A DNA stretch of 64,000 bases from Achromobacter ruhlandii (lineage in GTDB: Bacteria; Pseudomonadota; Gammaproteobacteria; Burkholderiales; Burkholderiaceae_B), in NCBI RefSeq assembly GCF_902859695.1, contig NZ_CADIJL010000008.1:124001-188000 (forward strand), written 5' to 3'. The notes below the pieces were generated by a model. That model was not told the origin of the DNA and made no database searches. It worked only from the letters and a program-made list of their open reading frames with translations. Position 1 is the first letter of the stretch. Each line of letters starts with the position of its first letter. Below, one piece after another: positions 8,203-60,809 of the stretch. The translations under genes were made by a program, and so were the position numbers.

Positions 8203-8240
8203 AAGGAGTTGACGCTTGCAAAGCAGAACGCGCGTGTCGA

Positions 8241-8447
8241 TCAATTCCTCAGCGACATTCCCTGGGGAGGCGCCGTCGCCATCACCCGTTCACGTAGTTC
8301 CTTCCCTGCCTTGAAGGCGGGCACCTATTTCGCCAGTGCCGTCACCGGCTGACCTGTTTTCGGGTTACGCGCTTGGCGGGTTGCGCGGTAGTTCAGGCTG
8401 CAACTTCCGAATCCGCGAATCTCCACTCGACCGCCCCGACGCGGTGT
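8241..8447 (-). pseudogene. ihfB: Fragment of ihfB (IHF beta subunit), C-terminal part
   Basis: Reading the minus strand, the frame gives [20 protein letters not shown], then [15 protein letters not shown], a TAG stop at 8327-8325, then VPAFKAGKELRERV and a natural-looking stop at 8243-8241. This is the DNA-binding beta-arm half of IHF-beta (compare the family motifs EIRGFGSF, GRNPKTG and FKPGKELR). The N-terminal ~40 residues, start codon and promoter are missing, and the internal amber codon kills the rest. The missing N-terminal half of an IHF-beta is found fused to the ATPase gene at 47,437. It abuts the relic at 8448. Confidence 0.88.
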
Positions 8448-8845
8448 ATTCCCACTGGCGGCAAGATTCGCTCCGGCATCAAGGTGCTCACGAAGAAGGC
8501 TGCCGGCGAGTTACCGCCGCGAGCGGGGTGGCCCAGATTTTCGAGAATCTGATGGCCCGCGCGCAGGGCCACGGTATCCGATGGGTGCAGTACCAGGCCT
8601 ATGCAGACCAGTTCACACCTTGTTTTTGCATCCTGACAGTGAACAATGCGGCGGTGGCGGCTACAGTGAGCGTGGTGGAGGCAGAGCCCGGGCCGTTGGC
8701 GAAGATATGGAGTGCCTGCTGCGTGGCTATCTCGTTGCGATCACTCACGAAGATAGCAGCGGCGATGCGGAAATTGGTTTACCTGGAAGGGCTTACTTCA
8801 GGCGCGGACCGGCACTGGCGATGCATGCAGGGCTGGGCATGCGGT
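8448..8845 (+). pseudogene. Collapsed relic of the RDF-like/SbcD-like cassette
   Basis: Three short stretches match the intact cassette at 47.6-49.4 kb, in order and orientation but with the material between them deleted. 8448-8515 matches the N-terminal part of the RDF-like gene ([19 protein letters not shown]). 8535-8610 matches its C-terminal part (FENLMARAQGHGI and YQAYAD). 8615-8750 matches the middle of the SbcD-like gene (CILTVNNAAVAATVSVVEAE against CVPTVNKAAVAAAV). No open frame spans it. The left edge joins the ihfB fragment directly, as expected from a deletion that removed both 5' ends. Confidence 0.8.
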
Positions 8846-8884
8846 TCGATTGACGCCATATTCCGTTAGGAATAATCTCCTTCC

Positions 8885-9253
8885 ATGTTCCGCTACTCAC
8901 ATTTCCGCTCGGTCCTTGCGATACTGCTGGCTTTCAGTCTGGTCAGCGCATCGTTGTGGAGCTATGGGGCCGAGGCAACTGCCGATTTACTGTCGGACGA
9001 GATGGCGCACTTTTCCGCCACGGGCCACCACGCCCAGCCGGACCACGAGTCCATCGGCAAGAATGGCGCCAACAAGCCCTGCAACCACGGCTGCCATGCC
9101 CAATTCCATTTGGCCGGGGCAGAATGCCACGACGAATCCTTCTCACCCATTCCCCCAGCAGGCGAGCGCTTTGATCCCCTGCGGGTGGGGCTGGTCCCGA
9201 CCCGCCCGAACGAGGATCCCTTCCGGCCGCCTCGCAGCTTCTTTCAAGCCTGA
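8885..9253 (+). CDS. Small periplasmic His/Cys-containing protein of the RND operon
   Basis: This 122 aa protein has a signal peptide or anchor at residues 9-28 (VLAILLAFSLVSASLWSYGA). The mature part has a metal-binding look: HFSATGHHAQPDH, then CNHGCHAQFHLAGAECH. Size, layout and position at the head of an RND operon recall CzcI/DUF2946-type proteins, thought to tune efflux or bind metal in the periplasm; the assignment is by layout. It lies 61 bp upstream of the outer-membrane factor gene. The preceding DNA carries gene relics, so this operon may begin here. Confidence 0.6.
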   Translation: MFRYSHFRSVLAILLAFSLVSASLWSYGAEATADLLSDEMAHFSATGHHAQPDHESIGKNGANKPCNHGCHAQFHLAGAECHDESFSPIPPAGERFDPLRVGLVPTRPNEDPFRPPRSFFQA

Positions 9254-9314
9254 GTCTTTTCCTTTGACCTAAGGCGGGCGCCGTTGGCGCCGGCCGGCTT
9301 GAAAGATTTATTCC

Positions 9315-10622
9315 ATGCTGTCTTGCAGTTCCCTTGCTGCGGCACGTCCTTTAGGACACGCCTTCGCGCTCCTGGCCGGGGCTTGGCTCGTGCTCGCCGG
9401 TGCGCCTGAAGTGAGCTACGCCGCCACGCCCTTGACGTTGGACGAAGCGTGGCGTCTCGCCGAAGCCGCCAACCCGACGCTACGCACCGCACAGGCCAAT
9501 CAGGCGGCGGCCGAGGGGCAACGCGCCGACACCCGCGGCCTCCTCTGGAACAATCCCCAGCTCTCCGCTGAAACCCTCCGCCGGGAGGGCCGGCAACCTG
9601 GGTTCTCCCAGGAACGATGGCGCGAGTGGAACGCCGGCCTTTCGCAGACTTTCGAAATCGCCGGGCAGCAGGGCCACCGCCGCGAGGCCGCCGATCAGGA
9701 TCTGGCCGCCCTGCAGGCGGTACTGCAGGAGACGCATCGCCGGGTACGCGCCGACATCGAACAGCGTTTCGTCCGGGTGCTGGCCCTCCAGCTTCGCATC
9801 GCGACCGAAGAAGTAGCGCTCCAGCTGGTTGAGGACGCCGCCACCGCCGTCCTGAAGCGAGTAGCGGCCGGCGAGGATAGCCGGCTCGACGGCAACCTGG
9901 CCCTCGTCGAAGCGGAGCGCGGCCGCAACCAGCTCGCTGCCCTGCGCGAGCAGCTCACCGAGGTCCGCGCCGAATTGGCCAGCGCCCTACAACTGGCACC
10001 GGAAAGCTTGCCCGAGGTGGCCGGCGAACTGATGCCCAGTGCCGCGAACTACACCCTCGATCAGTTGCTGGCGACGGCCCTCGGACGGCCGCAGTTGCAG
10101 GCACTGGAGCGGCGCGAAGCGGCGGCCGCCAGCCGCCTTGGCCTGGAGCGCGCCTCGGCTTACCCCGACATCACCGTCGGCGTGACGGCAGGCCGGGAAG
10201 GGGCGACTGAGGCGCGGGAGAAGCTCATCGGCGTCAGCCTCTCGGTACCATTGCCGCTCTTTCGCCGCAATGCCACGGGCATCGGCAAGGCGACGACCGA
10301 GCTGACCCAGGCGCAGATCGAGCGCCAGGTGGCTGGCCGCGACATTCCCGCCCAGGTGCGCGCCCTGTGGCTCAACGTCGAGAGCCTGCGGGCCCGGGTG
10401 AAACGCCTGGAAGCCAACGTGCTGGCCAGCCTCGATCAGAACCAGCAGCTGTCGACCAAGTCCTATCGCGCCGGCGAGATCGGCCTCCTGCAGCTCATCG
10501 TGGTGAACCGCCAGGTGCTCGACGGGCGCCGCGACCTGATCGACGCTCGCAGCGAACTGCGCCTCGCCACCGTTGCCCTCCAAGCCGCCGCAGGCTGGCC
10601 GGCCGCGGGAGGGGCGCGATGA
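9315..10622 (+). CDS. CzcC-type outer-membrane factor (TolC family)
   Basis: This 435 aa protein is within the normal size of TolC/CzcC proteins. Signal peptide: about residues 1-37, rich in Ala/Leu and ending SYAATP. It has the two-fold OEP repeat: TLDEAWRLAEAANPTLRTAQ opens the first half and LDQLLATALGRPQLQALERR the second. It forms the trimeric channel of a three-part metal pump. Its TGA overlaps the ATG of the adaptor gene (ATGA), so translation is coupled. Because the partner pump's substrate is not certain, I give no Czc or Cus symbol. Confidence 0.9.
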   Translation: MLSCSSLAAARPLGHAFALLAGAWLVLAGAPEVSYAATPLTLDEAWRLAEAANPTLRTAQANQAAAEGQRADTRGLLWNNPQLSAETLRREGRQPGFSQERWREWNAGLSQTFEIAGQQGHRREAADQDLAALQAVLQETHRRVRADIEQRFVRVLALQLRIATEEVALQLVEDAATAVLKRVAAGEDSRLDGNLALVEAERGRNQLAALREQLTEVRAELASALQLAPESLPEVAGELMPSAANYTLDQLLATALGRPQLQALERREAAAASRLGLERASAYPDITVGVTAGREGATEAREKLIGVSLSVPLPLFRRNATGIGKATTELTQAQIERQVAGRDIPAQVRALWLNVESLRARVKRLEANVLASLDQNQQLSTKSYRAGEIGLLQLIVVNRQVLDGRRDLIDARSELRLATVALQAAAGWPAAGGAR

Positions 10623-47570: not shown

Positions 47571-48899
47571 ATGGCCCATCCCAACGCACACCCCGTTATT
47601 GCCGTGCAAGGCGCCGGCGCTACCGCTGCGGCGACCCTGCTGGGGCAAGGCCCCGCCCGAATTCCCACCGGTGGCAAAATCCGCGCCGGTATCAAGGTGC
47701 TCACCAAGAAGGCCGCTGGCGAGTCCCGCGCCAAAGCGATCTACGACCAGGGGGTGGCCGCGGGCCAGTCCTTCGAGCAGATCGAGCGTGCCATCACGGC
47801 GGCCTTGCCCGACCTCAAGACGCCGCTGGTGCCGCGCAACGTGCCGTGGTTCACCGTGCGGGCGCAGGACTTTCCGAATCCCGAGATCGCCCGGGAGATT
47901 CTGGAAATCTATGGCGAGGATCGGGGCGAAGGCCGGCGCCTGTACCGCTTCCCGGTGGTCTTCCCCTCCGACTACTGGCAGACCGTGATGCCCCACGAAC
48001 TGGCGGCCTGGGGCACCCACGACAAGCACTACTGGTCGCAATACTCGGCCGATGGCCGAGTGCGCCACTGCATGTGCCATGCGCCGGTGCCGGTCGACGA
48101 TACGGGGCGGCGCATGATTCGCCTCTTCGGCGGGCGCAAGACCATGATCCGCGAGGACAACGGCGGTCTCTGCGAGCCCGAGGCCTGCCGCGAGTACCAG
48201 CAGCGCCAGTGCAACCTTACCGGGCGCTTCCTGTTCTTCATCCCCGGCATACGGTCGATCAGCGCATTCGAACTGCATACCAACAGCTTCTATGCGATGA
48301 ACGCGGCGATCCAGAAGTTCGAAACAGTGGGCTTCCTGCGGGGCGGGCGCATTTCCGGCTTTCTCGACCGGCAAGGCACGCCGTTCTACCTGACCAAGAA
48401 GCTCATGGAGGTGGCCCACATCGACGAGCAAGGCCGGGCCGTTCGCGTGCCACAGTGGATCATCGACCTGGCGGCGCCGGTGGACGTGACGGCCTTGCTG
48501 CGCGAGAACGAAGATGCCGAGACAGCCTTGGTGCAGGCGCAACTGGCGACGCAGGTGCTTCAAGGCTGCCCGGCAGAAGCCAGTGCCGAATCGCTGTCGC
48601 CGGAGGCCGCTGCTGCGCACGCGCCGACGGTGGTCGATGCAAAGTCTGCCGAGGAGCCGCCGCTGCACGACGGTCGTCCGAGCTTCGAGCAATTGATGGC
48701 CCGTGTGCAGGCCTACGGGATCGTGCCGGAACGCTACCAGGCCTACGCCGACCGGCGCTGGGGACGGGGTTGGAAGATCAACCCGAACGGCCGCGTCCTG
48801 GCCTGGAATGAACTCGAGCGCTACGGCAACGATCCGCAGGGCTACCTCGACAAGATCGAGAGCGAGATGCAACTAGCCTCGCGGGGGAGGACGGCATGA
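47571..48899 (+). CDS. RDF-like / 'hydrolase or metal-binding' ICE protein
   Basis: 442 aa from ATG 47571 (GGAGG nine bases before); an upstream start at 47541 is less likely. The N-terminal region has [20 protein letters not shown]. The core has YRFPVVFPSDYWQTVMPHEL, HYWSQYSADGRVRHCMCHAP, CEPEACREYQQRQCNLTGRF (metal-binding Cys cluster) and LFFIPGIRSISAFELHTNSF. The layout recalls recombination-directionality-factor-like (Gp3-like) proteins of ICEs; I am not certain. Its stop overlaps the next gene's ATG (ATGA), tying it to the SbcD/SbcC-like pair. A collapsed copy exists at 8.4 kb. Confidence 0.7.
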   Translation: MAHPNAHPVIAVQGAGATAAATLLGQGPARIPTGGKIRAGIKVLTKKAAGESRAKAIYDQGVAAGQSFEQIERAITAALPDLKTPLVPRNVPWFTVRAQDFPNPEIAREILEIYGEDRGEGRRLYRFPVVFPSDYWQTVMPHELAAWGTHDKHYWSQYSADGRVRHCMCHAPVPVDDTGRRMIRLFGGRKTMIREDNGGLCEPEACREYQQRQCNLTGRFLFFIPGIRSISAFELHTNSFYAMNAAIQKFETVGFLRGGRISGFLDRQGTPFYLTKKLMEVAHIDEQGRAVRVPQWIIDLAAPVDVTALLRENEDAETALVQAQLATQVLQGCPAEASAESLSPEAAAAHAPTVVDAKSAEEPPLHDGRPSFEQLMARVQAYGIVPERYQAYADRRWGRGWKINPNGRVLAWNELERYGNDPQGYLDKIESEMQLASRGRTA

Positions 48900-50206
48900 T
48901 CCGTATCGCGCATTTCTCCGACCTGCACTACGGCACCAAGAACCTGGCGGAAGCTGACCGCTGCTTCGGTGCCGCCATCGACCGGGCTATCGCGTTGGGC
49001 GTGGAGGCGGCCGTCCTCTCGGGCGATGCCACCGACCATGGCCTGGACTTGCACGCCCCGGCCGCCGAACGGCTGATGGTCCAGGTGCGGCGACTGGCCG
49101 ACCATTGCCAGGTGTTGATGCTTCAAGGGACGTTCTCGCATGAACCGCCGGGCACCCTGGCGATCTTCCGGCTGCTCGGCGGACGGCACCCGGTGCACGT
49201 GGCCGACCGGATCGCGCAGGTCGCCCTCACGGCCCAGGGCGAATGGCTCTCTTCGACGGGCTGGTGCTTCGATCAGCTGCCGGGCAATGCTCACGCGCTG
49301 TTTTCCTGCGTGCCCACGGTGAACAAGGCTGCGGTCGCCGCTGCGGTCGGTGCAACGGAAGCCGCCCAGGCGGTCGGCGAGCAGCTGGCCCTCTTGTTGC
49401 GCGGCTACGCGCCCATCAATCGCGCAGCCCGCCGGCAGGGCGTGCCCAGCATCGGCGTCGCCCATGGCACGGTGTTCGGTTGCGTCAGCGAGCACGGCGT
49501 GCCGATGGCCGGCTTCGATCACGAGTTCACTACCGGTGCCCTGTTCGGTGCCGAGGCCCAGGCCTTCATGCTCGGGCACATTCATCGGCATCAGGCATGG
49601 GAACAGCAGAGCAGGGTAGGGCGGCAGTGCATCGCCTATCCGGGCTCGATCGGTCGTTTTCATTACGGCGAGGAAGGGGAGAAGGGTTTTCTGCTCTGGG
49701 AAGTCGACGCCGACCAGGCGCGTTTCACCCTGGAGCCCACGCCCGCGTGCCGGACTGTCGATATCGTGTTCGACGGCAAACCCGACCTCGACGCCCTGCG
49801 CACAGCCGTCGCGCAGCAGGACATCGCCGGTGCGTTCGTGCGCGTGCGCTGGACCGTCGCCGATGAAGACCGCCATCAGGTCGACCGTGCGGCGATCGAG
49901 CGGTTGCTGGACGGGGCGGCGGAAACCAAGCTGGAGGGGCGCATCGTGCCGGTGGTGCGCACGCGGGCGGCGGGGATCTCGCAACTGGCGAATCTGGCGG
50001 ACAAGGTGCGGGTCTGGGCGCAGGTGACCGAGGCGCGGGTGGAACCCTTGCTCGAGTGCCTCCGGTCGCTGTCAGGCCAGGAACCGGAAGTCATCGCCGA
50101 GCGTGTGCTGCGTGGGCAGGAAGTCCCCGATGGCGGGGAATGCATCGACACCGCAGACACCCTGTCGCCCCCAAGGGCCGATCTTGAGCTCGCGCTGTCG
50201 TTTTGA
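48896..50206 (+). CDS. SbcD-like metallophosphoesterase
   Basis: 436 aa. Calcineurin-type motifs: IAHFSDLHYGTK (DxH), VLSGDATDHG (GDxxD), MLQGTFSHEPPG in place of GNHD, SIGVAHG, and MLGHIHRHQAWEQ (GHxH). SbcD and Mre11 use these to bind two Mn ions for DNA cutting; Thr-Phe-Ser before the His is unusual. The C-terminal 150 residues form a cap for binding an SbcC partner. Start and stop are coupled to the gene before it; 87 bp lie before the sbcC-like gene. Probably a DNA end-processing nuclease, used for element maintenance or defence. Confidence 0.85.
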   Translation: MIRIAHFSDLHYGTKNLAEADRCFGAAIDRAIALGVEAAVLSGDATDHGLDLHAPAAERLMVQVRRLADHCQVLMLQGTFSHEPPGTLAIFRLLGGRHPVHVADRIAQVALTAQGEWLSSTGWCFDQLPGNAHALFSCVPTVNKAAVAAAVGATEAAQAVGEQLALLLRGYAPINRAARRQGVPSIGVAHGTVFGCVSEHGVPMAGFDHEFTTGALFGAEAQAFMLGHIHRHQAWEQQSRVGRQCIAYPGSIGRFHYGEEGEKGFLLWEVDADQARFTLEPTPACRTVDIVFDGKPDLDALRTAVAQQDIAGAFVRVRWTVADEDRHQVDRAAIERLLDGAAETKLEGRIVPVVRTRAAGISQLANLADKVRVWAQVTEARVEPLLECLRSLSGQEPEVIAERVLRGQEVPDGGECIDTADTLSPPRADLELALSF

Positions 50207-50293
50207 CCTGGCCAGGGCCTGTCACTTGGGGACGGACTTGCACACCCTCTTTCGTGCGGGAGACTGATCTGGTCATCCCGCTGGAGTATCGCC

Positions 50294-52738
50294 ATGCAAC
50301 CTCTTTCACTCACTCTCAAGGGCTTTCGCGGCATTCGCGATGGCCTGGGACGCGATGTCCTGACCCTGGATTTCGAGCGACTGGCCGACGGTGCCGAATT
50401 GGTCGCCATCGTCGGCGCCAACGGGCGCGGCAAGACCACCGTGATGGACAACATGCACCCGTACCTCTCGATGCCCTCACGTGCCGCTGTGGCGGGGCCG
50501 GGTGGGTTCTCCTACTACGACCACGTGTGCCTGCCCGAGAACGAGAAAGACCTGATCTGGGCCCACGACGGCTGCAGTTACCGATCGCAGGTCGTGATCC
50601 GCCTTAACGGCCGGCGCAAGACCGAAGCCTTCCTGTTCGTCCTCGCCGACGATGGCGCCTGGAAACCTGTCGCACTGGGTGACGGCACCGTGTCCGACGG
50701 CAAGGTGGACACCTATACCCGCTGCGTCGAGGCCCTCTGCGGTAGCGCCGACACCTTCTTCACCTCGGTGTTCTCGGCCCAGGGCAAGCGGCAGCTGAGC
50801 GCCTACCGCAATGCCGAGATCAAGACCCTGCTGGCCGATCTGCTCGGGCAGGAGGAGATCCGCGTGCTCGGCCAGAAGGCGGGCGAGACGGCGCGTCTGC
50901 TCAAGATGGGCCTCGCGGCGATCCGGCAGGAACAGGCCTCGCTGGATGAGGAAGCGCACCGGATCGAGAGTGAACGGCGGCGCCTTGATGGCGCCCAGGC
51001 TCGCGTCGCGCAGAGCCTGTCGACCCGACAGGTGGCTCAGGCCACGCAGGAGTCGGCGCGAGCCCGGCATGCCCAGTTGATCGCCGAGCGCGCGCAGGCG
51101 CAAGGCGTGGAAGCGCGCCGGCGGCAACTTCAGGGCGAATGCCAGGCGGTGGTCCAGGCCGGCAAAGGGGCTATCGAAGCCTTGCAGGCACAGGATCGGG
51201 GCGAGCAACAGCGGCTGCAACGGCTGGAGCTGCGCATCGCCCAGCGTCTCAACCAGGAGCGCAACCGCCGGCAAGTCTTGCAGAACCAGCGCCGGCAGTG
51301 CCTCACGTCGCTGGCCGGGGCGCAAGCCGTGCGGCGTGGAGAGCGCCGTCTGCCTCTGGCCGAGCGAGTCTCATCGCTACGATCGGCGCAGGTCGGAACG
51401 TGGCGGGAGCACGTTCAACGCCTGACCCGGTGCGATGCAGCGGAACGGGTGGCCCAGCAGCAATTGTCCGGGATCGAGCGCGAGGCCGGGCAAGCAACGT
51501 TCAAGGCTGAGGAGTTGGCGCGGCGCTTCGGGCTCACCGGCGAGGTGCCGTGTGCGGGTAGCGACCTGCAGGGGCAATGCCAGCTCCTGGGCGATGCGCG
51601 GGAAGCCCAGGCCATGATTCCCAGCGCCCAGGGGACGATTCAGCGCCTGGGGCGCGAGAAAGCGACGGTGCTGAAGGAACTGGACGCCTTGCGCGGACAG
51701 CATGAGGCCCTCGCCGGTGCGCCGCAGGCATTGGTACGGGCCGAGCACCGGGCCGAGCGTGCCCGGGTACGTGCCTCGCGGTTTGCGCTGCTAGCCGCCC
51801 AGGCCGGGGAAATGGTGCGGGCGCGAGCCACGCTAGCAGAGATCGAGGAGGAGCTGACGGAACTGCGGACGGCTCTGGGACCGAATGCCGCCGATCAGCC
51901 GGCGGAGACGTCCGAGGAGGCCACCGAGCGCCAGCAGATAGGAGCGGCACGGCAGGCCATCGCCGTCCAGCACGAACAGCAGGCCGAGCACCATCGCGCC
52001 GCCCTGGACCGCCTCAAACAGGTGCTGGCGGCCTTGCCGGCACCTTACGACGAGCAGCGCCTGATCGATGCCCAGACCGCGATGGAGCAGGCCGCGCGGT
52101 CGGTCATTGCCGCCGAGCAGGCCCACCTGGCTGCGGTGCGGGACGCCGAAACCCTGGGTGCCGTGGTGCAGCAGGCAACGGCCCTGGCCGGTCGTCAAGC
52201 GCACGTGGCCAACCGCATCGCCAAGGTCGAAACCGAGTTGGGCGACTGGAATCTGTTCGCCAAGTGCATGGGCAACGACGGTCTGATCGCGCTGGCCATC
52301 GATGATGCCGGTCCGGCCTTGTCGGGACTGGCCAACGACCTCCTGCTCGCCTGCTACGGTCCCCGCTTTACGGTATCCATCCAGACTCTGGTGGAGACCG
52401 GCAAGGGCGAGCAGAAGGAAGGCTTCGACATCCTGGTGCACGATGGCGAGTCGGGCGAGAGCAAGAGCGTCGGTCTGATGAGCGGCGGCGAAAGGGTGTG
52501 GATCTCATGCCGAGCTCGGCATGAGATCCACTATGCCGCGAACCGGGTTATGCCGAGTAGCCTTCGACGGCGAGTTTTCCGCGCCAGTGGACGCGGACCG
52601 ACGTCGTGCCGCGATGGTCGGCATAAAACGCGCGTCAGTGCCCCTGATCTGTCGGCAACACACCATGCGCATTCAATAACCCCCTCGCAGAACCGTAGGG
52701 CGACGGAATATTTTTCGACGTTGCCGAACAGGACTTGA
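50294..52738 (+). pseudogene. SbcC-like ATPase, first copy, interrupted after its signature motif
   Basis: The native sequence spans 50294 to about 52492. Walker A: IVGANGRGKTTVMDNMHPYL; two coiled-coil arms joined by CAGSDLQGQC; signature start LMSGGE. The frame then leaves homology and reads 80 unrelated residues to 52738. Walker B and the C-terminal lobe are missing, so it cannot hydrolyse ATP properly. The original last 30 codons survive at 56,308-56,400. The point of break coincides with a perfect 34-bp palindrome. The second copy at 52,790 shows what was lost. Confidence 0.88.
52498..52531. repeat. Perfect 34-bp palindrome at the sbcC break point
   Basis: GTGGATCTCATGCCGAG followed by its exact complement, with no spacer. 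It begins five bases after the SGGE codons of the first sbcC. Further copies of the TATGCCG / CGGCATA motif occur in the next 100 bp (52,532-52,626), so it is probably the end of the inserted element. Confidence 0.9.
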
Positions 52739-52789
52739 AGACGAAAAAGTCCGTGATAGCCTGAACTGAACCTTTCTTAAGGACACCTC
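52532..52789. other. Leader of the inserted segment
   Basis: About 260 bp between the palindrome and the second sbcC. It holds repeated TATGCCG motifs and, just before the gene, an AAGGA ribosome site. No gene is seen except the random tail of the first sbcC frame. Confidence 0.5.
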
Positions 52790-55279
52790 ATGCGACCTCT
52801 CACACTGACCCTGAAGGGCTTCCGCGGCATCCGCGATGGCCTGGGCCTCGATGCCCTGACGCTCGACTTCGAGAAACTGGCGGGTGACGCTCAACTGGTG
52901 GCGCTCGTTGGCGCCAATGGGCGCGGCAAGAGCACCATCATGGAAAACATGACGCCGTTCCTGACCATGCCATCGAGAGCAACTGTTGCCGGACCGGGCG
53001 GTTTCTCCTACTACGACCATGTCTTTCTGCCGGAAAACACCAAAGACTTGATTTGGGTTCACGAGGGGCGCCGCTACAGGTCGCAAATCGTCATCCGTCT
53101 CAACGGTCGACGCAGAACGGAAGCCTTTCTCCATATCGTCGACGAGCGCGGCTTTTGGCAGCCCGTGCGACTCAACGACGGCACTGTGTCTGACGGCAAG
53201 GTCGACACGTACAGCCGCTGCGTGGAGTCGATCTGCGGTAGTCCTGAGACGTTCTTCACATCCGTGTTCTCGGCCCAAGGCAAGCGGCCGTTGAGCGCTT
53301 ACCGCAATGCCGAGATCAAGACCTTGCTTGCTGATCTGCTGGGACAGGACGAAATCCGTGCGCTGGGTCAGAAAGCATCGGAGACCGCTCGCCTGCTCAA
53401 GAGCGGTCTCATGCTGATTCGGCAGGAACTGGCTGGACTGGACCTTGACGGTGAACGACTGCGCGGCGAGCGCCTGCGACTCGACGGTGCGGCCGAGCTC
53501 GTCACGCGCTGCGAAACGACGCGCCAAGAGGCGCAGCGTGCAGTCGAAGTGGCCCACGCCTCGCATGCCTGCTTGTCGGTAGAGCGTGAGCAGTCGCGAG
53601 GCATCGAGGTACGGCGTTCGCAGTTGCTGGCTGAGCGCAAATCCTTGGTCGATGCAGACGTCCAGACTCAACGGACGCTACAGGTACAGGATCGCGGTGA
53701 ATGCGAGCGCCTCGAACGACTTGATCAGCGCATTGCCAATCGGCTGCAGCGGGAGCGCTCCAGGCGGCAGGCCTTGGTGCAGTCACGACAGCGGAACCTC
53801 GATACGCTCGCCGACACGCGTGCCGTGCAATGGGCGACGGTTCGCCTGCCGCTGGCCGAGCGCGTGCTGTCTCATCGCCTCGCGCTGACGCGCGCCTGCC
53901 GCGATCAGACCAACGCACTGATGCAATGCCAAGCTGCTGAGCGGCTGGCCGAACAGAAATTGGCTGACATCGAGCGCGATGCGGGCAAGGCCGCGCTGAA
54001 GGCAGAAGAACTCGCCCACCGGTTCGGGTTGGCGGGCGAAGTACCTTGCGCCGGCACTGACCTGCAGGGCCAGTGCAAGCTGCTAGGCGATGCACACGAA
54101 GCGCAAGCACTCGGTCCGAGTGCAAAAGCCGAGATTGCTCGGCTGGCTCGCCAGAAGTTGGCCGCGCAAGGCGAGCTTGCCATTGCGCGGCAACAGCGCA
54201 AGGTGTTGGCAGGTGCCTCGCAGGCACTGGCTTGGGCGGAACACCGGGAAGCGATTGCGCGAGACCGGGGGGCCAAGCTGAGCGCTCTGGCCGCAAAAGC
54301 CCAGATGTGCGCCCAAGCGCGAACGGTGTTGGCGGATATCGATCAGGAACTGGCCGCGATGGGCCCAGGCGACGCAGAGTGCAAGGGCGTCGAGGTGGCT
54401 GAAGAACAAGCCGAGCGCCGCCAGATCGCTACGTCGCGGCGGATGATCGCAAAACAGTTGGAACAGCATGCACAGCAGTCGAGTACCGCACTGGCGCGCC
54501 TGGCCAGCACGCTTGCCGCGCTGCCCCCTCCTTACGATGAGCAAGGGCTGGCCGCGTCTGCCCAGGCCTTAGCGTTGGCACGCGCCGCACTGGCGACAGC
54601 GGAACAGTCGCATCTGGCAGCGGTGCGCGACGCCCAGTCTCTTGATGCGCTGTCGAGACAGGTGGCGGCGCTGGCTGAACGCAGAAGCCTGATCGACGCG
54701 CGGCGGGAGCAGGTCGAGAATGAACTGGGCAATTGGAACCTCTTCGCCCGCTGCATGAGCAACGACGGCCTGATCGCGCTGGCTATCGACGATGCCGGCC
54801 CGGCGCTGTCGGCCTTGGCCAACGATCTGCTGCTCGCTTGCTACGGACCACGATTCACAGTGTCGATCCACACCCTGCTTGAGACCGGCAAGGGGGAACA
54901 GAAAGAAGGCTTCGACATCGTCGTGCACGACGGTGAAACAGGGGAAAGCAAGAGCGTTACGTGGATGAGCGGTGGGGAGAAGAACATCGTGGAGTCCTGT
55001 CTGACCCGTGCGATTGCGCTCTACCTCGCACAACACTCGGGGCGGCAATACACGACATTGTTCTCCGATGAAGCCGACGGGGCGCTTGACCCCGAGCGCA
55101 AGCGCATGTTCATGGCGATGAAGCGTGAGGTGCTGCGCCTGGGCGGTTATGAGCAGGAATACTTCATCTCGCAGACCCCGGAACTAACGGCGATGGCAGA
55201 TGTAATGATCGATTTGGACCGTCTGTGTTGGCAGGCTTCTGACCAGGCCAATGAAGTTGCTGCGCTGGCCGAAGCATGA
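52790..55279 (+). CDS. SbcC-like ATPase, second, intact copy
   Basis: 829 aa. Walker A: LVGANGRGKSTIMENMTPFL; coiled-coil arms about 180-420 and 470-650; hook CAGTDLQGQC; signature TWMSGGEKNIVESCLTRAIA; Walker B LFSDEADGALDPERKRMFMA; D loop and C-terminus FISQTPELTAMADVMIDLDR. It is similar to the first copy along its whole length but clearly diverged, so it came from a related element, not from a recent duplication. SbcC/Rad50 proteins clamp DNA and gate the SbcD nuclease. With the first copy broken, this one probably serves the SbcD-like protein at 48,896. Confidence 0.88.
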   Translation: MRPLTLTLKGFRGIRDGLGLDALTLDFEKLAGDAQLVALVGANGRGKSTIMENMTPFLTMPSRATVAGPGGFSYYDHVFLPENTKDLIWVHEGRRYRSQIVIRLNGRRRTEAFLHIVDERGFWQPVRLNDGTVSDGKVDTYSRCVESICGSPETFFTSVFSAQGKRPLSAYRNAEIKTLLADLLGQDEIRALGQKASETARLLKSGLMLIRQELAGLDLDGERLRGERLRLDGAAELVTRCETTRQEAQRAVEVAHASHACLSVEREQSRGIEVRRSQLLAERKSLVDADVQTQRTLQVQDRGECERLERLDQRIANRLQRERSRRQALVQSRQRNLDTLADTRAVQWATVRLPLAERVLSHRLALTRACRDQTNALMQCQAAERLAEQKLADIERDAGKAALKAEELAHRFGLAGEVPCAGTDLQGQCKLLGDAHEAQALGPSAKAEIARLARQKLAAQGELAIARQQRKVLAGASQALAWAEHREAIARDRGAKLSALAAKAQMCAQARTVLADIDQELAAMGPGDAECKGVEVAEEQAERRQIATSRRMIAKQLEQHAQQSSTALARLASTLAALPPPYDEQGLAASAQALALARAALATAEQSHLAAVRDAQSLDALSRQVAALAERRSLIDARREQVENELGNWNLFARCMSNDGLIALAIDDAGPALSALANDLLLACYGPRFTVSIHTLLETGKGEQKEGFDIVVHDGETGESKSVTWMSGGEKNIVESCLTRAIALYLAQHSGRQYTTLFSDEADGALDPERKRMFMAMKREVLRLGGYEQEYFISQTPELTAMADVMIDLDRLCWQASDQANEVAALAEA

Positions 55280-55341
55280 GCCACCATCGTGGCGCAGATG
55301 TCCGCTGCCGAGGAAGCTGGCGGCGGGCATCCAGCTACCCA

Positions 55342-56409
55342 CTACAAAGCGGCAAGAAACGCCAGTAGTTGATCGTCTGGTCGGTAGCGGCCAGACTTTC
55401 CGACATGCGGCGCTGTCTTCTCCAGGACTTGCTCCTTTAATGTCATGTCGGCCTCCAGGTAGATCTGCGTCGTCTCGACCGACTCGTGCCCCAGCCACAG
55501 CGCAATGACGGAACGATCGACACCGGCCAGGAGCAGATCCATGGCTGTCGTGTGGCGCAGCACGTGGGGCGTCACGCGCTTGCCCAGCAACGAAGGGCAG
55601 GCCGTACTCGCGGTCGCGACATGTTTGGCCAGAAGGTACTGGACACCGTCTGCGCTGAGCCGGGTGCCCCTCGCACTCGGAAACAACACCTTACACTCGG
55701 GAGGCAAGTCGATTCGCATCCATGTCTGCAGGACGTGGCGGGTCTGCTTCGCCAACGGCGTGCACCGCTCCTTGCGCCCCTTTCCGACGACATGAACGTG
55801 AGCGCCGGTGTCGAATCTGACATCCTCGCGACACAGGCCGGTCAGTTCGGAGAGCAGCAACCCCGTTTGTACCGCCAGCAGCAGGAGCGCATGATCGCGC
55901 CGACCGCCCCACGAGCTCAAGTCGGGTGCGGCGAGCAGCGCTTCGACCTCCTGGCGCGTCAGATGGCACACCTGATTGCGTGGGCCACGCTTGCTGGGGA
56001 TCGCGAGGATGCGCTGGATCTGGGCGGAATGCGCCGGTGCTTCGAACGCGGCGTAGTGGAAGAATGAACGGATGGCGCTCAGGCGCAGATTCCGACTGCG
56101 CGTCGAAACACCACGCTCGCGCTCCAGGTCACCGAGAAAGTCGGTGATCACCACTGCGTCGAGTTGCTCGAAGGCCAGTTTGCAGGGTGACGTGCCAAAG
56201 TGCTTGTGCATGTACTTGAGCAGCAGGCGGAAGGTGTCTCGATAGGAGGCGATCGTGTGTGGACTGGGCCGCTGTTGCTGCATAAGCCGGCGCGTGAAGA
56301 ACCCCTCGAGTATCAGCGGGAGTTCTTCGTGTCCCAGACGCCGGACCTGACCGCCATGGCGGATGCGGTGATTGATATGGATCTTCAGGGCCGCTTGTAG
56401 GATTGCCAT
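55342..56409 (-). CDS. Tyrosine recombinase with altered catalytic Arg
   Basis: 355 aa. N-terminal SAM-like domain: SPHTIASYRDTFRLLLKYM. Catalytic domain: VQTGLLLSELTGLCREDV, TPHVLRHTTAMDLLLAGVD, IALWLGHESVETTQIYLEAD (Tyr nucleophile). The usual TGLR is TGLL, so the first catalytic Arg is Leu; one base change (CGx to CTx) explains it. The first 38 residues lie antisense over the tail of the first sbcC, so the true start may be further in. It probably moved the 3.8-kb insert and may now be weak or inactive. Confidence 0.82.
   Translation of the reverse strand: MAILQAALKIHINHRIRHGGQVRRLGHEELPLILEGFFTRRLMQQQRPSPHTIASYRDTFRLLLKYMHKHFGTSPCKLAFEQLDAVVITDFLGDLERERGVSTRSRNLRLSAIRSFFHYAAFEAPAHSAQIQRILAIPSKRGPRNQVCHLTRQEVEALLAAPDLSSWGGRRDHALLLLAVQTGLLLSELTGLCREDVRFDTGAHVHVVGKGRKERCTPLAKQTRHVLQTWMRIDLPPECKVLFPSARGTRLSADGVQYLLAKHVATASTACPSLLGKRVTPHVLRHTTAMDLLLAGVDRSVIALWLGHESVETTQIYLEADMTLKEQVLEKTAPHVGKSGRYRPDDQLLAFLAAL
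56308..56400 (+). pseudogene. 3' end of the interrupted sbcC-like gene
   Basis: EYQREFFVSQTPDLTAMADA, then VIDMDLQGRL and a TAG. This matches the C-terminus of the intact copy (EYFISQTPELTAMADVMIDL). It has no start and is separated from its 5' part by 3.8 kb. The next plus-strand gene starts 43 bp later, as expected for the original order. Confidence 0.85.
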
Positions 56410-56443
56410 GGCTTGTCCGGCGCCCCGCCGCTAAAATGTCTGC

Positions 56444-56680
56444 ATGTCGAAAATCCCCGAACCCACACCCGCGTTGAACAGGCTGCGCGCAGCGGCCGGC
56501 TTGATCCCCCTCATTGAGGATGGCCTTCGCCAGTCGAAAATCACCGTCGAGAAGGCTTCTTTGATGTCGGAGTTTTGCAGCTGGGCGGCCCAGCAAGCAA
56601 CGGAAGGCGGCCCGGAGGCCTTACGCCTTGGCGATGACATCAAAGCGGGCTTGGAACGGCTTAAAACGCTGCTGGCATAG
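56444..56680 (+). CDS. Small helical protein, 78 aa
   Basis: Mostly helix: TPALNRLRAAAGLIPLIEDG, ITVEKASLMSEFCSWAAQQA, and a Leu-rich end (IKAGLERLKTLLA). It has no membrane or metal motif. It follows the sbcC tail, so in the uninterrupted element it was the next gene of the nuclease cassette. Family unknown. Confidence 0.6.
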   Translation: MSKIPEPTPALNRLRAAAGLIPLIEDGLRQSKITVEKASLMSEFCSWAAQQATEGGPEALRLGDDIKAGLERLKTLLA

Positions 56681-56747: not shown

Positions 56748-57071
56748 TCACGGCTCGGGCTCCTGCAAATCAAAAACCGGTAGACCGTCGATCACGGCCG
56801 CTTCGCTATCGAACTTCAGCCAGGCAATACCGGCTTGCTCCGCGACTTCGAAGATTGTGGCTAGATCGGCTTCCGTCGGCATCCGGTAACGGGGGGAGCC
56901 GACATAGATAATGCCGCCGCAGTCGGTCGGGTAGGCGTTGACCGACAAGTCGTCATCGGCCAGTTTCAGGCGGGTGCTTGAACTCAGATGCGAGATCGAT
57001 AACGAGGCCAGAGGTTCAGCCTGCGCTTGCAGGGTTGCCACAGCGGGTGCTTCCATGCGCTTCTCCTCCAT
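56748..57071 (-). CDS. Hypothetical ICE protein, 107 aa (DUF5983-like?)
   Basis: Contains SLSISHLSSSTRLKLADDDL, TDCGGIIYVGSP and AEQAGIAWLKFDSEAAVIDG. The layout (short N-terminal strand, GG-IYVG, then DLATIFEVAEQAGIAWLKFD) resembles DUF5983-type element proteins, though I cannot verify it. Its start overlaps the end of the zinc-ribbon gene upstream by 56 bp. Confidence 0.6.
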   Translation of the reverse strand: MEEKRMEAPAVATLQAQAEPLASLSISHLSSSTRLKLADDDLSVNAYPTDCGGIIYVGSPRYRMPTEADLATIFEVAEQAGIAWLKFDSEAAVIDGLPVFDLQEPEP

Positions 57072-57467: not shown

Positions 57468-58499
57468 TCACATCCGCCGCAACCAACCGAGCAAGTCACG
57501 GCCGTCGAATTGGAACCGACCGCCACGCGGTGGCGCCAGCGCATCTGGGAACACCTGCGCAATGGCCTGGCGCTTGAGATCGATATCGGCCCGGGCATAG
57601 CGCATCGTCGTATTCAAGCTGGCGTGCCCCAGCCACTGGCTGATGGTAGCGAAGTCCACCCCTGACTTCAGCAGCGCAATGGCTGTGCTATGGCGCAGTG
57701 AATGCGGGTGGATGCTCTTGTCTCGTATGCTCGGCGTCCGCTGCGCCGCAGCGGCGACGTACCGGCGCAACAGGTAGCGCACGCCAAAGCGCGTCAGCGG
57801 CCCACCGCGGGCATTGGTGAAGAGCAGCGCATCCGCGGGATCCCCGTCGGGCGCCGGTGCTTCAGCGATGAAGGCGCGCAGCAGCTTGGCCGTTGCTGGC
57901 CAGATCGGACACAGTCGCACCTTGTTGCCCTTACCGTGAAGGCACACCTGGGGCGGCGCATCCAAGCGCACATCGCGCCGCCTCACGTCCAACGCCTCCT
58001 GCACGCGCGCGCCGGTGTTAAACATCAGGGCGAACAGGGCATAGTCGCGCCGGCCCAGTGCGGTGTCACGGTCGATGCTCTGCAGCATCGCCTCGATCTC
58101 GGCGCGCTCCAGATAGTCGATCGGCACCTCGCGCGCGCCACGCTTGTACGGCAGGCCGATCACCTGCTGCAGCGAACCCAGATACTCCGGCCGGCGCGTC
58201 GCTAGGAAGCGTGCAAAGACATGGATGGCACCGAGGCGGGCGTTACGGGTGGCGATCCCGTTGCCACGGTCCGTCTCGAGGAAGTTCAGGAAGTTGATCA
58301 CCCGCTCGGCGGTCAGATCGGACACCTCCAGTCGCTCGATCGGTCGCTTGGCGTTAGCTGAGGCGAACTGCAGCAACAGCAGCAAGGCGTCCCGGTAGCT
58401 GCGCACCGTGTTTGGGCTCAAGCCACGCTGCGCTGGCAGGAACTCCTCGAAGAAGCGTACCAGTTCGCGCCCGAGATCGGTTGGGGTGAACGGCTTCAT
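57468..58499 (-). CDS. RIT tyrosine recombinase, third gene (RitC type)
   Basis: 343 aa from ATG 58499; longer upstream starts are in shadow sequence. Catalytic set complete: FNTGARVQEALDVRRRDVRL (Arg I), HPHSLRHSTAIALLKSGVD (HxxR), SQWLGHASLNTTMRYARAD (GH and Tyr). N-terminal arm/core: SPNTVRSYRDALLLLLQFA. It cuts and rejoins DNA through the Tyr. Its ATG overlaps the TGA of the second recombinase (ATGA). Confidence 0.9.
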   Translation of the reverse strand: MKPFTPTDLGRELVRFFEEFLPAQRGLSPNTVRSYRDALLLLLQFASANAKRPIERLEVSDLTAERVINFLNFLETDRGNGIATRNARLGAIHVFARFLATRRPEYLGSLQQVIGLPYKRGAREVPIDYLERAEIEAMLQSIDRDTALGRRDYALFALMFNTGARVQEALDVRRRDVRLDAPPQVCLHGKGNKVRLCPIWPATAKLLRAFIAEAPAPDGDPADALLFTNARGGPLTRFGVRYLLRRYVAAAAQRTPSIRDKSIHPHSLRHSTAIALLKSGVDFATISQWLGHASLNTTMRYARADIDLKRQAIAQVFPDALAPPRGGRFQFDGRDLLGWLRRM

Positions 58500-59467
58500 G
58501 AGGCACCTCCTTCGATCACCCCCGCGCAGGAGCGCGCGAACCGATCCGATGCCTGCGACATGACCGCCGGCATCCAACGCAGGTAGTACGCGGTCGAGAC
58601 GATTGACACATGGCCCATGTAGAGTGCGAGCTTGGGCAGGCAGGACTGGACATCGGCGTTGGCCTTGTACCAGCGCAGCAGCGCCGACACCGCGAAGCTG
58701 TGCCGAAAGTCCTGCACACGTGGACACCGGCCGGCGCTGTCGTGAATGCCAGCGCAACGCAGCAGGCGTTTGAAGCTGCTGTAAAAGCCCTCGCCAGTGT
58801 AGGCACGCGATCCCCGGGTGCATAACAGCGGCGCCTCTCGGTGCTCATCGAAATGGGCCTGTTGCCGCACCGCAAGGTAACACCGCAGCTCAGCATGCGC
58901 GCTGACCGACAGGGGAACCCAGCGTGACTTGTGAAACTTCGACTCCCGGATCCGCAGAATTCCGGCGTCGGCATTCACATCGCCCAGCGTCAGACGGACG
59001 AGTTCACCGCGCCGTAGTCCGGCGGTGTACAGCAGCACGACCGCCAGGCGCATGGCCTGCGCCCGCACGGGGGATCGACTCCCAGAGGGCAGTTGCGATA
59101 CGTAGGTGAGCAATTTCGCCACCTGCCCGGGCTCGATGATGGTCGGCAGCGCATGCGGCTTCTGGCGCGCGAGCGAGTCCCGATCCGGCAGGAAGCAGCC
59201 GAGATCGCTGCGTCGGCGATAGCGGTAGAACTTGTAGACGGTGTGCTCACGTACGACGCGCGTACTCGAGCTGAGGTGGTGGAACTGCGCGCGCCAGCAG
59301 TCGAAGAGGGCCGGATCGAGATCAGTGGCGCCAGCGCGTATGAGGAAGCTGCGCAGCTCGCGCAGGATCAGTTCCTCCTTACGGTAGGCGCGGCCGATGG
59401 CGTGGCGGCTGTTCAGATAGGCCGCGACGGCGGCGTCCCAGGTGTCCAGGCAATGGGTTTCATGCAT
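58496..59467 (-). CDS. RIT tyrosine recombinase, second gene (RitB type)
   Basis: 323 aa from ATG 59467. Arg I is in LYTAGLRRGELVRLTLGDV; box II has RVQDFRHSFAVSALLRWYKA (Gln for the usual His); then LYMGHVSIVSTAYYLRW with GH and Tyr. The N-terminus has RKEELILRELRSFLIRAGA. The middle protein of the trio is usually the most divergent, which fits. It overlaps the first gene by eight bases. Confidence 0.88.
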   Translation of the reverse strand: MHETHCLDTWDAAVAAYLNSRHAIGRAYRKEELILRELRSFLIRAGATDLDPALFDCWRAQFHHLSSSTRVVREHTVYKFYRYRRRSDLGCFLPDRDSLARQKPHALPTIIEPGQVAKLLTYVSQLPSGSRSPVRAQAMRLAVVLLYTAGLRRGELVRLTLGDVNADAGILRIRESKFHKSRWVPLSVSAHAELRCYLAVRQQAHFDEHREAPLLCTRGSRAYTGEGFYSSFKRLLRCAGIHDSAGRCPRVQDFRHSFAVSALLRWYKANADVQSCLPKLALYMGHVSIVSTAYYLRWMPAVMSQASDRFARSCAGVIEGGAS

Positions 59468-60692
59468 GGCCGTCTCCCTGACCGAGATCTGCCTCGGGCA
59501 CTTCGAGGGCGACGCCGCGCAGCATCTCAGTGTCCAGCCGCAAGTAGGTGCAGGTGCTCTCCAGGCTATGGTGGCCGAGGAGGTCACCGATGGCCTTGAC
59601 GCCCACGCCCCGCGTGAGTAACCGCATCGCGAACGTGTGTCGCAGGCGGTAGACGTTGTGGTCCGGCAGTTCCAGATTGGACTGCCGAACGCGCTTCTTG
59701 AAGATGTCGCCGATCGCATAATGTTCCAGTGGGCCGCTCGGGCAGCGTGCGCGCAGGAACAACTCGGGGTAATCCGTGCCTTGTGCACGGCGCTCGTGCG
59801 CCAGATAGTCGCGCAAGAGCCGCATGGTCTGGGGCGCCAGCGGCAGCAGCAGGTCCGACCGGGTCTTGCATTGGACGACATGCAGCACGGCGGCCTCCCA
59901 GTTGATCGAGTCTACGCGCAGCGCCACGACTTCGGACGGCCGCAGGCCGTAGTGGGCCATCAGGTGCAGGATGCACTGATCGCGCCGCCCCGCCTTGCTA
60001 TGAAGGTCGATTGATCGAATCAGCGCCTGGACCATCGACCAATCGAGCGCCCGTGGAGGCAACTCGCCACGGTAGGTTCGGGGCGTCTCAATCGCATCGA
60101 GCACGCGTCCGATCGCGCCGTGGTCGTGACAGTAGCGCAGGAAGCTCCTCAGGTACGCGACTACATGCTGCAGCGAGTGGCGAGTCACCTCGCGGCTGCG
60201 CAGGGCAACGTATCGTTCGATGTCCTCGAGCTTGAGCGCGTCTAACTCCTGCCCAGCCCCGAGGCCACGCGCCAGGAAATCGGCGACGGTCATCGCATGG
60301 TGCTGGCAAGACGACAGGGACAGGCCGCGCAGTTCCCGCAGGTGCCGCTCGTAAGCGATACACAGGTGGGTGTGGCGGCCTTTGTCCTCGTCCTTGATCA
60401 GCCGACCGTGCGCAAGCAGGAATCGGCCATAGGTACGTTCGGTGGCATGAAACCGATGGAAGCGGCTCGGCACCCCTCGGCCGACAGCCACGAACGCACT
60501 GTGCACGTCTTCCACGCGGCAAGTCGGGCCTGCAAGTCGAGGCAAGACCTGCTCCAGCCGCAGCAAGTGCAGATGAGTGACGAACGGCGTGTAGCGCTCG
60601 CAGCCGAGCCACAGCGCAAACTCCTTCAACTCCGGCGCGAACGCTGATCGCGCCAACAGCGTGCGTGTATTGCTGGGAAAATTGATAGCCAT
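59460..60692 (-). CDS. RIT tyrosine recombinase, first gene (RitA type)
   Basis: 410 aa from ATG 60692, with GGAG seven bases upstream. Arg I is in HYGLRPSEVVALRVDSINW; box II NVYRLRHTFAMRLLTRGVGV (Tyr for His before LRH); LLGHHSLESTCTYLRLDTEM with GH and Tyr. It has an extra N-terminal part of about 100 residues (SAFAPELKEFALWLGCERY). First of the trio to be transcribed; the promoter probably lies between 60,693 and 60,820. Confidence 0.88.
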   Translation of the reverse strand: MAINFPSNTRTLLARSAFAPELKEFALWLGCERYTPFVTHLHLLRLEQVLPRLAGPTCRVEDVHSAFVAVGRGVPSRFHRFHATERTYGRFLLAHGRLIKDEDKGRHTHLCIAYERHLRELRGLSLSSCQHHAMTVADFLARGLGAGQELDALKLEDIERYVALRSREVTRHSLQHVVAYLRSFLRYCHDHGAIGRVLDAIETPRTYRGELPPRALDWSMVQALIRSIDLHSKAGRRDQCILHLMAHYGLRPSEVVALRVDSINWEAAVLHVVQCKTRSDLLLPLAPQTMRLLRDYLAHERRAQGTDYPELFLRARCPSGPLEHYAIGDIFKKRVRQSNLELPDHNVYRLRHTFAMRLLTRGVGVKAIGDLLGHHSLESTCTYLRLDTEMLRGVALEVPEADLGQGDGHA

Positions 60693-60809
60693 GGTGTCTC
60701 TCCTCATGCAGTGGATGGACACCGTACGGTACGTGCGACGCGGAGTTATGTGCAGTTCGCCGACGCCAGCGCGGCGGCAGGAGCCGCGTGGACTCCCGCA
60801 CTGCACATA

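Follow-up and report, generated by a model that had tools for sequence, protein, structure and literature searches.

How does a mobile nuclease module keep its coiled-coil ATPase when the gene for it has been broken? The question is raised by a 64,000-nt stretch of Achromobacter ruhlandii contig NZ_CADIJL010000008.1 (GCF_902859695.1, positions 124,001-188,000), here called the window, in whose coordinates positions are given. Genes for a Gp3-like protein, an SbcD-like metallophosphoesterase and an SbcC-like ATPase stand in a row there, and the resident ATPase gene, sbcC1, is interrupted by an insert that contains a second, complete gene, sbcC2. The most probable answer from the sequences is that site-specific elements break sbcC and bring with them an insertion-proof replacement, which would both rescue the broken gene and be immune to further insertion. 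Loci from relatives are given by L number; a search with sbcC2 gave 161 of them, and the analysis covers the 80 best.

An insert breaks sbcC1 and carries sbcC2

The initial annotation of this region assumed a single SbcC-like gene. It positioned the first three open reading frames (ORFs) correctly but overlooked the insertion: sbcC is present twice. The broken gene and the insert consist of the following parts.

50294-52498, plus strand: 5' part of resident sbcC1, codons 1-735, broken (resident clade support 98; homology to intact relatives ends here)
52499-52504, plus strand: TGGATC, probably the 6-nt core at which crossover takes place at the second insertion site (TGGATC or TGGGTC at both element ends in Dechloromonas CZR5)
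52505-52524, no strand: 20-bp palindrome where the element is joined (identically placed in 10 other sbcC genes and two more)
52525-52789, plus strand: element end and sbcC2 leader (52525-52807 matches both CZR5 right ends, 90.9 and 97.5%)
52790-55279, plus strand: sbcC2, intact copy borne by the element (829 aa), with changes at both insertion sites (element clade support 100)
55342-56316, minus strand: RitC-type tyrosine recombinase (97% to CZR5 ritC; called ORF extends to 56409 through sbcC1 antisense)
56311-56400, plus strand: stranded 3' end of resident sbcC1 (DNA identity 90-95% to six close relatives, 79-86% to two more)

The sbcC1 gene comes next after the SbcD gene and groups with the resident sequences (88% to L031; tree support 98). 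Its ORF as called spans 50294-52738, with its own code stopping at about 52498-52504; homology to intact relatives ends at about 52504 and restarts at about 56311, with about 156 bp gone, and the insert measures 3.8 kb. The C-terminal code of sbcC1 (about 56311-56400) lies antisense within the start of the recombinase ORF. The break falls between codons 735 and 736 (732/733 in SbcC2 numbering), in the code for the signature motif, at a TGGRTC core. When the genome was searched with intact SbcC, three matches were obtained: the protein itself, a 62% identical copy over residues 1-745, and a 24-residue piece. Besides sbcC2, which is about 62% identical to sbcC1, no other intact member of this family was found in the genome.

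The recombinase in the insert matches the third genes of three plasmid RIT trios at 64-67%. Of such a trio of adjacent recombinase genes, ritC alone is left in the window insert, and no ginABCD operon was found in it. A BIM (bimAB) element was also considered for the insert, by way of a supplement caption naming an SMC-domain second protein; the recombinase matches RitC instead.

RIT-type elements strike the same codon in relatives

Dechloromonas CZR5 holds more complete relatives of this insert. Two of its resident sbcC genes (L056 and L064) break off at the window's codon, next to the same element end. A 4.2-kb contig reads from the element end through ritA, ritB and ritC into a reversed sbcC2 whose residues 565-829 are 98% identical to those of the window copy. 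Two further contigs have the first sbcC2 codons at their edge and continue across the other element end into a resident sbcC that resumes at W-[IV]-N-E-C. Both CZR5 junctions have a TGGATC or TGGGTC core. The window element is oriented opposite to that of CZR5 and has lost ritA, ritB and one end; in either orientation the palindrome TCATGCCGnnnnCGGCATGA stands on the resident 5' side.

Together, the second-site motif and its palindrome were found in 11 loci, in each case within sbcC and at one codon. A whole-genome search for the palindrome in 8 genomes found seven places in four of them, all seven within sbcC, and none in the other four. The palindromic end was not found in three other RIT loci, and a plasmid similarity search with it returned one partial match, in a thioredoxin-family gene. 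The genes ritA, ritB and ritC occur in this order in CZR5, L061 (12770-15932, overlapping), L063, L156 and L160; ritA follows the palindromic end in L061, L063 and L039 and was not detected within 1.3 kb past it in L011. The RIT elements of L061, L063, L011 and L039 carry only a partial sbcC, its 3' end, without V732. The carried 3' end is fused in frame with the broken gene in five loci (these four and L160; L061 and L063 have the same sbcC). In L026 (20554-20735), two sbcC 5' halves stand head to head via the 20-bp palindrome, either a recombination product or an assembly artefact.

GInt-type elements strike sbcC at codon 56

A second class of element interrupts sbcC elsewhere. In 17 loci the resident gene ends at codon 56, just after Walker A, at a single base, between CAYCC[CT] and TTATGTTGA, the core at this site being CAYCCC. 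All 17 of these stub loci have an element-type sbcC downstream, a figure that is not a census because sbcC2 served as bait. Both element ends, 12.0-13.5 kb apart, are present in 17 loci, which are largely but not wholly the stub loci and are probably 16 distinct ones because L038 and L124 look like one contig. CAYCCC stands at both junctions in 13 of these 17; the right end differs in L010 and L042, and L038 and L124 are cut at the contig end. The elements contain mer genes, a full-length copy of sbcC, and three recombinase-sized genes in an operon with a small one, which is the GInt layout. In L042 (minus strand, 18077-12807) the operon's ORFs are 396, up to 699, 631 and 163 aa, and the GInt label is given by layout, without comparison to published Gin proteins. 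The second ORF alone has an Xer-type match (E 2e-8), with none for the 631-aa ORF.

These elements can be compared with the genes that they interrupt. Identity is 100.0% (to one decimal) within each of two versions, one of 12,013 bp in L037, L039, L040, L042 and L043 and one of 12,008 bp in L018, L019, L057 and L075. The 3' parts of the resident sbcC genes are 68-76% identical over their alignable parts in 14 of the 16 pairs sharing a version, the others being L018/L019 (96.5%) and L037/L043 (93.1%). Since identical copies lie in different species, the 12-kb mercury-resistance element appears to have moved recently. Conversely, L040 and L075 have residents that are 97.5% identical and elements that are merely 81.9% identical, and L039/L018 behave likewise; the same base was therefore hit independently. 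In Piscinibacter sakaiensis 201-F6 (L075, 6549-18556), the 12,008-bp mercury-resistance element is located within sbcC.

With these junctions in view, an assembly error or chance duplication becomes highly improbable as the source of the doubled genes. Several loci are metagenome bins and L026 has its odd head-to-head junction, which would fit such errors, but the identical junction base recurs in isolate-titled records (e.g., L012, L021, L037, L040, L043 and L075), and the independent insertions have different flanks.

GInts were also surveyed on other plasmids and without sbcC as bait. Three other plasmids carry GInts whose GinA proteins are 66, 41 and 40% identical; no sbcC is annotated in their 12-14 kb flanks (annotation only), and on the first of the three sbcC lies about 45 kb away. 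A GinA census of 399 genomes gave two close matches, together with 148 more at E 0.001 or better that are distant recombinases. One close match is an sbcC-carrying element on a 12-kb contig and the other lies on a 5.8-kb contig too short to judge; within the family around the sbcC-carrying match, that one stood alone among 11. A census of the GInt left end in the 399 genomes gave one match, the same sbcC-carrying element. The sbcC family itself was found in 8 of the 399 genomes at E 1e-6.

Carried copies differ from residents at the insertion points

In a tree of SbcC sequences longer than 500 aa, the 18 copies scored as element-borne group with the window's SbcC2 in a single 34-row clade (support 100). 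The clade has 14 further non-interrupted rows: for 12 of these a gin gene or gin fragment is adjacent on the contig, and the other two (L017 and L077) stand behind SbcD. Ten carried copies are under purifying selection, with a ratio of nonsynonymous to synonymous substitution rates (dN/dS) of 0.17-0.28 by a simple counting method at dS up to 1.5.

The positions at which the clade departs from residents were located in an alignment from which three plasmid rows had been removed and in which duplicates had been collapsed (33 to 24 and 59 to 56 rows). At least 85% of residents agree in 287 columns, and six of these have been lost by the clade: 37, 45, 55, 60, 732 and 736 (SbcC2 numbering). All six lie at most 20 codons from the two insertion points (hypergeometric P 2.8e-5), and five lie within 12 codons (P 1.1e-4). 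Six resident control clades showed no such clustering, with near-site losses of 0/6, 4/23, 0/1, 1/7, 6/46 and 1/28. The site codons were counted at DNA level: CAYCCN at site 1 is found in 0/24 carried copies against 34/40 residents, and GTNTGG at site 2 in 0/23 against 46/54, in counts that omit rows without the needed codons and hence residents interrupted at site 1. The site-2 codons of the window's SbcC2, AAG AAC ATC, were seen in no other row.

Some loci appear to have gone further. In L017 an element-type gene stands directly behind SbcD, 53 nt apart, and L004-L006 and L024 have lost most recombinase genes and kept sbcC. Such loci may represent later stages, with the carried gene in place of the resident one.

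It is conceivable, though we think unlikely, that the carried SbcC serves the inserting element rather than the broken host gene, by processing ends or by poisoning or redirecting the resident complex. The carried copies do form a clade of their own with lineage-specific changes, and they pair with an SbcD of other origin. Yet they occur where the resident gene is broken (17/17 stub loci), and their fixed changes sit at the insertion points, not protein-wide. Moreover, the element-type gene of L017 is the only sbcC seen behind SbcD there, and sbcC has stayed open in L004 and L024 despite the decay of the recombinase genes there.

A break-and-replace mechanism

Comparison of these loci demonstrates, at the level of sequence, that the elements insert at fixed sites, that those of the GInt class have moved recently, and that the elements carry a copy of their target which is changed at both sites. 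In the window, the sbcC of an ICE-borne nuclease module (ICE, integrative and conjugative element) was struck at TGGRTC by an RIT-type element that brought a full-length sbcC; ritA, ritB and one end of the element are now missing, as are about 156 bp of sbcC1. We propose that the carried copy would supply SbcC to the resident SbcD and keep the SbcCD complex working, so that insertion into a needed gene would be tolerated. The changed codons at both attachment sites would block self-insertion as well as insertion by the rival class.

With somewhat less assurance, we also favor a broader interpretation, in which two unrelated recombinase elements converged on breaking and replacing the same gene. 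Each would home into codons for a catalytic motif of sbcC, a gene of conjugative elements, and carry an insertion-proof copy in which both its own site and that of its rival are recoded. This would be a natural counterpart of the engineered cleave-and-rescue drive, and sbcC would be swapped between species as the elements decay. The arrangement suggests that an element could afford to strike a conserved motif in a gene that its vehicle needs by bringing that gene along. It would be a natural case of target-site recoding, with two recombinase families at one gene, and a route by which foreign sbcC genes could replace resident ones. The broken genes are also a natural hint that the module's SbcC matters.

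Several points weigh against the break-and-replace mechanism proposed for these elements. First, the column test was post hoc, with widths set after the columns had been seen and columns treated as independent. At looser cut-offs 7/12, 9/13 and 12/30 fixed differences lie within 20 codons of the sites (P 2e-5 to 2e-3), and at the strictest cut-off 3/3 do so (P 0.007) or, at 12 codons, 2/3 (P 0.04). Second, some residents are also without the site codons (6/40 at site 1 and 8/54 at site 2), and the window's SbcC2 keeps the resident residue at 37, 45 and 60, differing at 55, 732 and 736 only. The row of L042 at the base of the element clade is a resident and was counted among residents. Third, elements without sbcC may be under-counted because the loci were baited with sbcC2, and one additional stub, in G408, falls outside the 17/17 count. 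Fourth, we infer that the CZR5 contigs join, because the middle of sbcC2 is absent from that assembly, and the RIT membership of the window element rests on its relatives because only ritC remains. The function of the in-frame fusions is doubtful because a linker stays between the two signature motifs. Lastly, excision, integration and nuclease activity are predictions from sequence.

The resident nuclease module

The module in which sbcC1 is located comprises two genes upstream of it, with two more on its right.

47571-48899, plus strand: Gp3-like protein of 442 aa, with whose gene the resident module begins (PF18897; gene order)
48896-50206, plus strand: SbcD-like metallophosphoesterase with a GTFSHE motif (weak phrog_100 and TIGR00619 matches; motifs invariant in 30/30)
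56444-56680, plus strand: small conserved 78-aa protein, 3' of resident sbcC (91-96% in L023, L031, L045 and L066)
56748-57071, minus strand: DUF5983 protein, frequent right neighbor of the module (PF19419; close to sbcC in many loci)

The Gp3-like ORF starts at 47571 or 47541, ends at 48899, and matches PF18897 with E 9e-31 and 107.7 bits against a cut-off of 23.6. Overlapping stops and starts had been claimed to tie the cassette together; the Gp3-like and SbcD genes do overlap by 4 nt (SbcD start at 48896), and between SbcD and sbcC1 there is instead a gap of 87 nt. This gap is a spot for cargo: L061 has a GmrSD-type restriction enzyme in it (7526-9688), and gaps of 0.6-4.6 kb occur elsewhere. 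The proposed association of the genes was borne out in a neighborhood survey, in which homologues lacking the Gp3-like gene were not common. Among 50 SbcD copies with enough upstream sequence, 48 are preceded directly by a Gp3-like gene, and the remaining two (L054 and L084) have it 0.4 and 1.2 kb upstream. The small helical protein that the initial annotation placed in the cassette corresponds to the 78-aa protein, which is conserved near sbcC and kept downstream of it in four close relatives; here the insert parts it from sbcC1.

The canonical Mre11/SbcD motif is GNHD. In the present family, S81, H82 and E83 of SbcD are invariant across 30 homologues, all 30 of which read GT[FYW]SHE, and the SbcC hook is C-x8-C in all 92 sequences (91 by the strict pattern and one variant); a CxxC hook is present in neither window SbcC copy. 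Both oddities, observed initially in the window's proteins, are therefore family traits. The pair resembles Mre11-Rad50 and SbcCD in combining a metallophosphoesterase with a coiled-coil ATPase that has Walker A and signature motifs, and it differs in lacking the GNHD of SbcD and the CxxC hook of SbcC. Mre11/Rad50-type families are matched by SbcD and SbcC only under the curated cut-offs, and phage SbcCD-like families are matched; an SbcD profile found only weak Mre11/SbcD matches in the PDB (best E 1.6e-4). A Gp3-like profile had no PDB match up to E 1, and the AlphaFold model of the Gp3-like protein is too poor for use (mean predicted local distance difference test score, pLDDT, 52; predicted template modeling score, pTM, 0.24). 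These results support the description of the pair as Mre11/Rad50-like but separate from housekeeping SbcCD, associated with a Gp3-like gene and carried on a mobile element.

The functions first suggested for the module, recombination directionality at excision and defense, fared less well. On that account the module would be an undescribed nuclease defense or excision system and the second sbcC an ordinary paralogue. A conserved three-gene module on mobile elements, with distinctive SbcD and hook motifs, would fit this account, as would a PADLOC match of SbcC2 to mads_3 (E 5.5e-14), an ATPase spanning both ends. We nevertheless regard it as improbable. The sbcC2 gene lies within an insert that has element ends and a recombinase, and pieces matching at 97-98% lie in another genome's sbcC genes. 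The Gp3-like domain is shared with phiC31 gp3, a recombination directionality factor of a serine integrase, but no large serine recombinase partner (PF07508) was found in this genome or in the three plasmids tested, and only 4/12 genomes or records have one. PADLOC was blank for the Gp3-like, SbcD and 78-aa proteins, and the next match of SbcC2 after mads_3 was at 7e-4, the other MADS genes not having been looked for. Judging from the family, the likeliest role of the module is DNA-end processing for its conjugative element.

Traces of further Gp3-like genes were also observed. Decayed second copies lie upstream of the intact module in L015 (2-1077, with SbcD too) and L067 (332-529). In the window, a short remnant of a Gp3-like gene (8445-8510) stands behind DUF1173 (6994-8199), 39 kb left of the intact gene, with metal-resistance-type genes in between; it possibly marks an earlier insertion into the module's first gene.

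Comparison with known elements

Islands that split tRNA genes usually restore a short end of the gene. In the elements described here, a whole diverged protein gene is supplied, altered at the insertion site. What the two would have in common is that the element restores the gene that it breaks (PMC4383910).

GInt and RIT are already known element classes. Published GInt targets are an ABC transporter gene, ssb and a ribonucleotide reductase gene, and an outward promoter has been proposed to lessen the damage; in the main text of that report the word sbcC is absent and no carried target copy is described (PMC5385486). The codon-56 elements resemble these GInts in having three recombinase-sized genes and a small fourth at one end, cargo including mercury resistance, site-specific insertion and short imperfect direct repeats (PMC5385486). 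RIT elements insert in genes such as radC and share with the sbcC elements the overlapping RitA/B/C order, a length of about 3.5 kb, insertion within genes, and a flanking inverted repeat with a palindromic sequence; in the accessible text of these reports the targets are inactivated and no cargo gene is mentioned, whereas the sbcC elements carry a full or partial copy of their target (PMC2864759, PMC3414803). The rulB integron-like elements of pWW0 are similar in having three recombinases and a tetR-like gene and in inserting at one base of a plasmid UV-tolerance gene; their target is a different one, and the accessible text makes no mention of a replacement copy (PMC4542609). Within the accessible open-licence literature, we found no report of a GInt or RIT in sbcC, or of one carrying a copy of its own target.

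Mobile context of the module

The placement of the module on an ICE or other mobile element is supported. On the same contig, about 4 kb beyond the left edge of the window, there is a TraI_2 relaxase, which we take to be of the MOBH type. Copies of the module are also found on plasmids, among them pMOL28, which is typed conjugative, as are 28 of the 59 matching plasmid records. In L085, left of the window, hydrogenase-like genes and a zinc-finger primase-like ORF were seen near the TraI_2 relaxase (these two judged from ORF starts). On the minus strand beside the DUF5983 gene (57468-60806), a second overlapping trio of tyrosine recombinases forms a separate RIT-like or GInt-like element.

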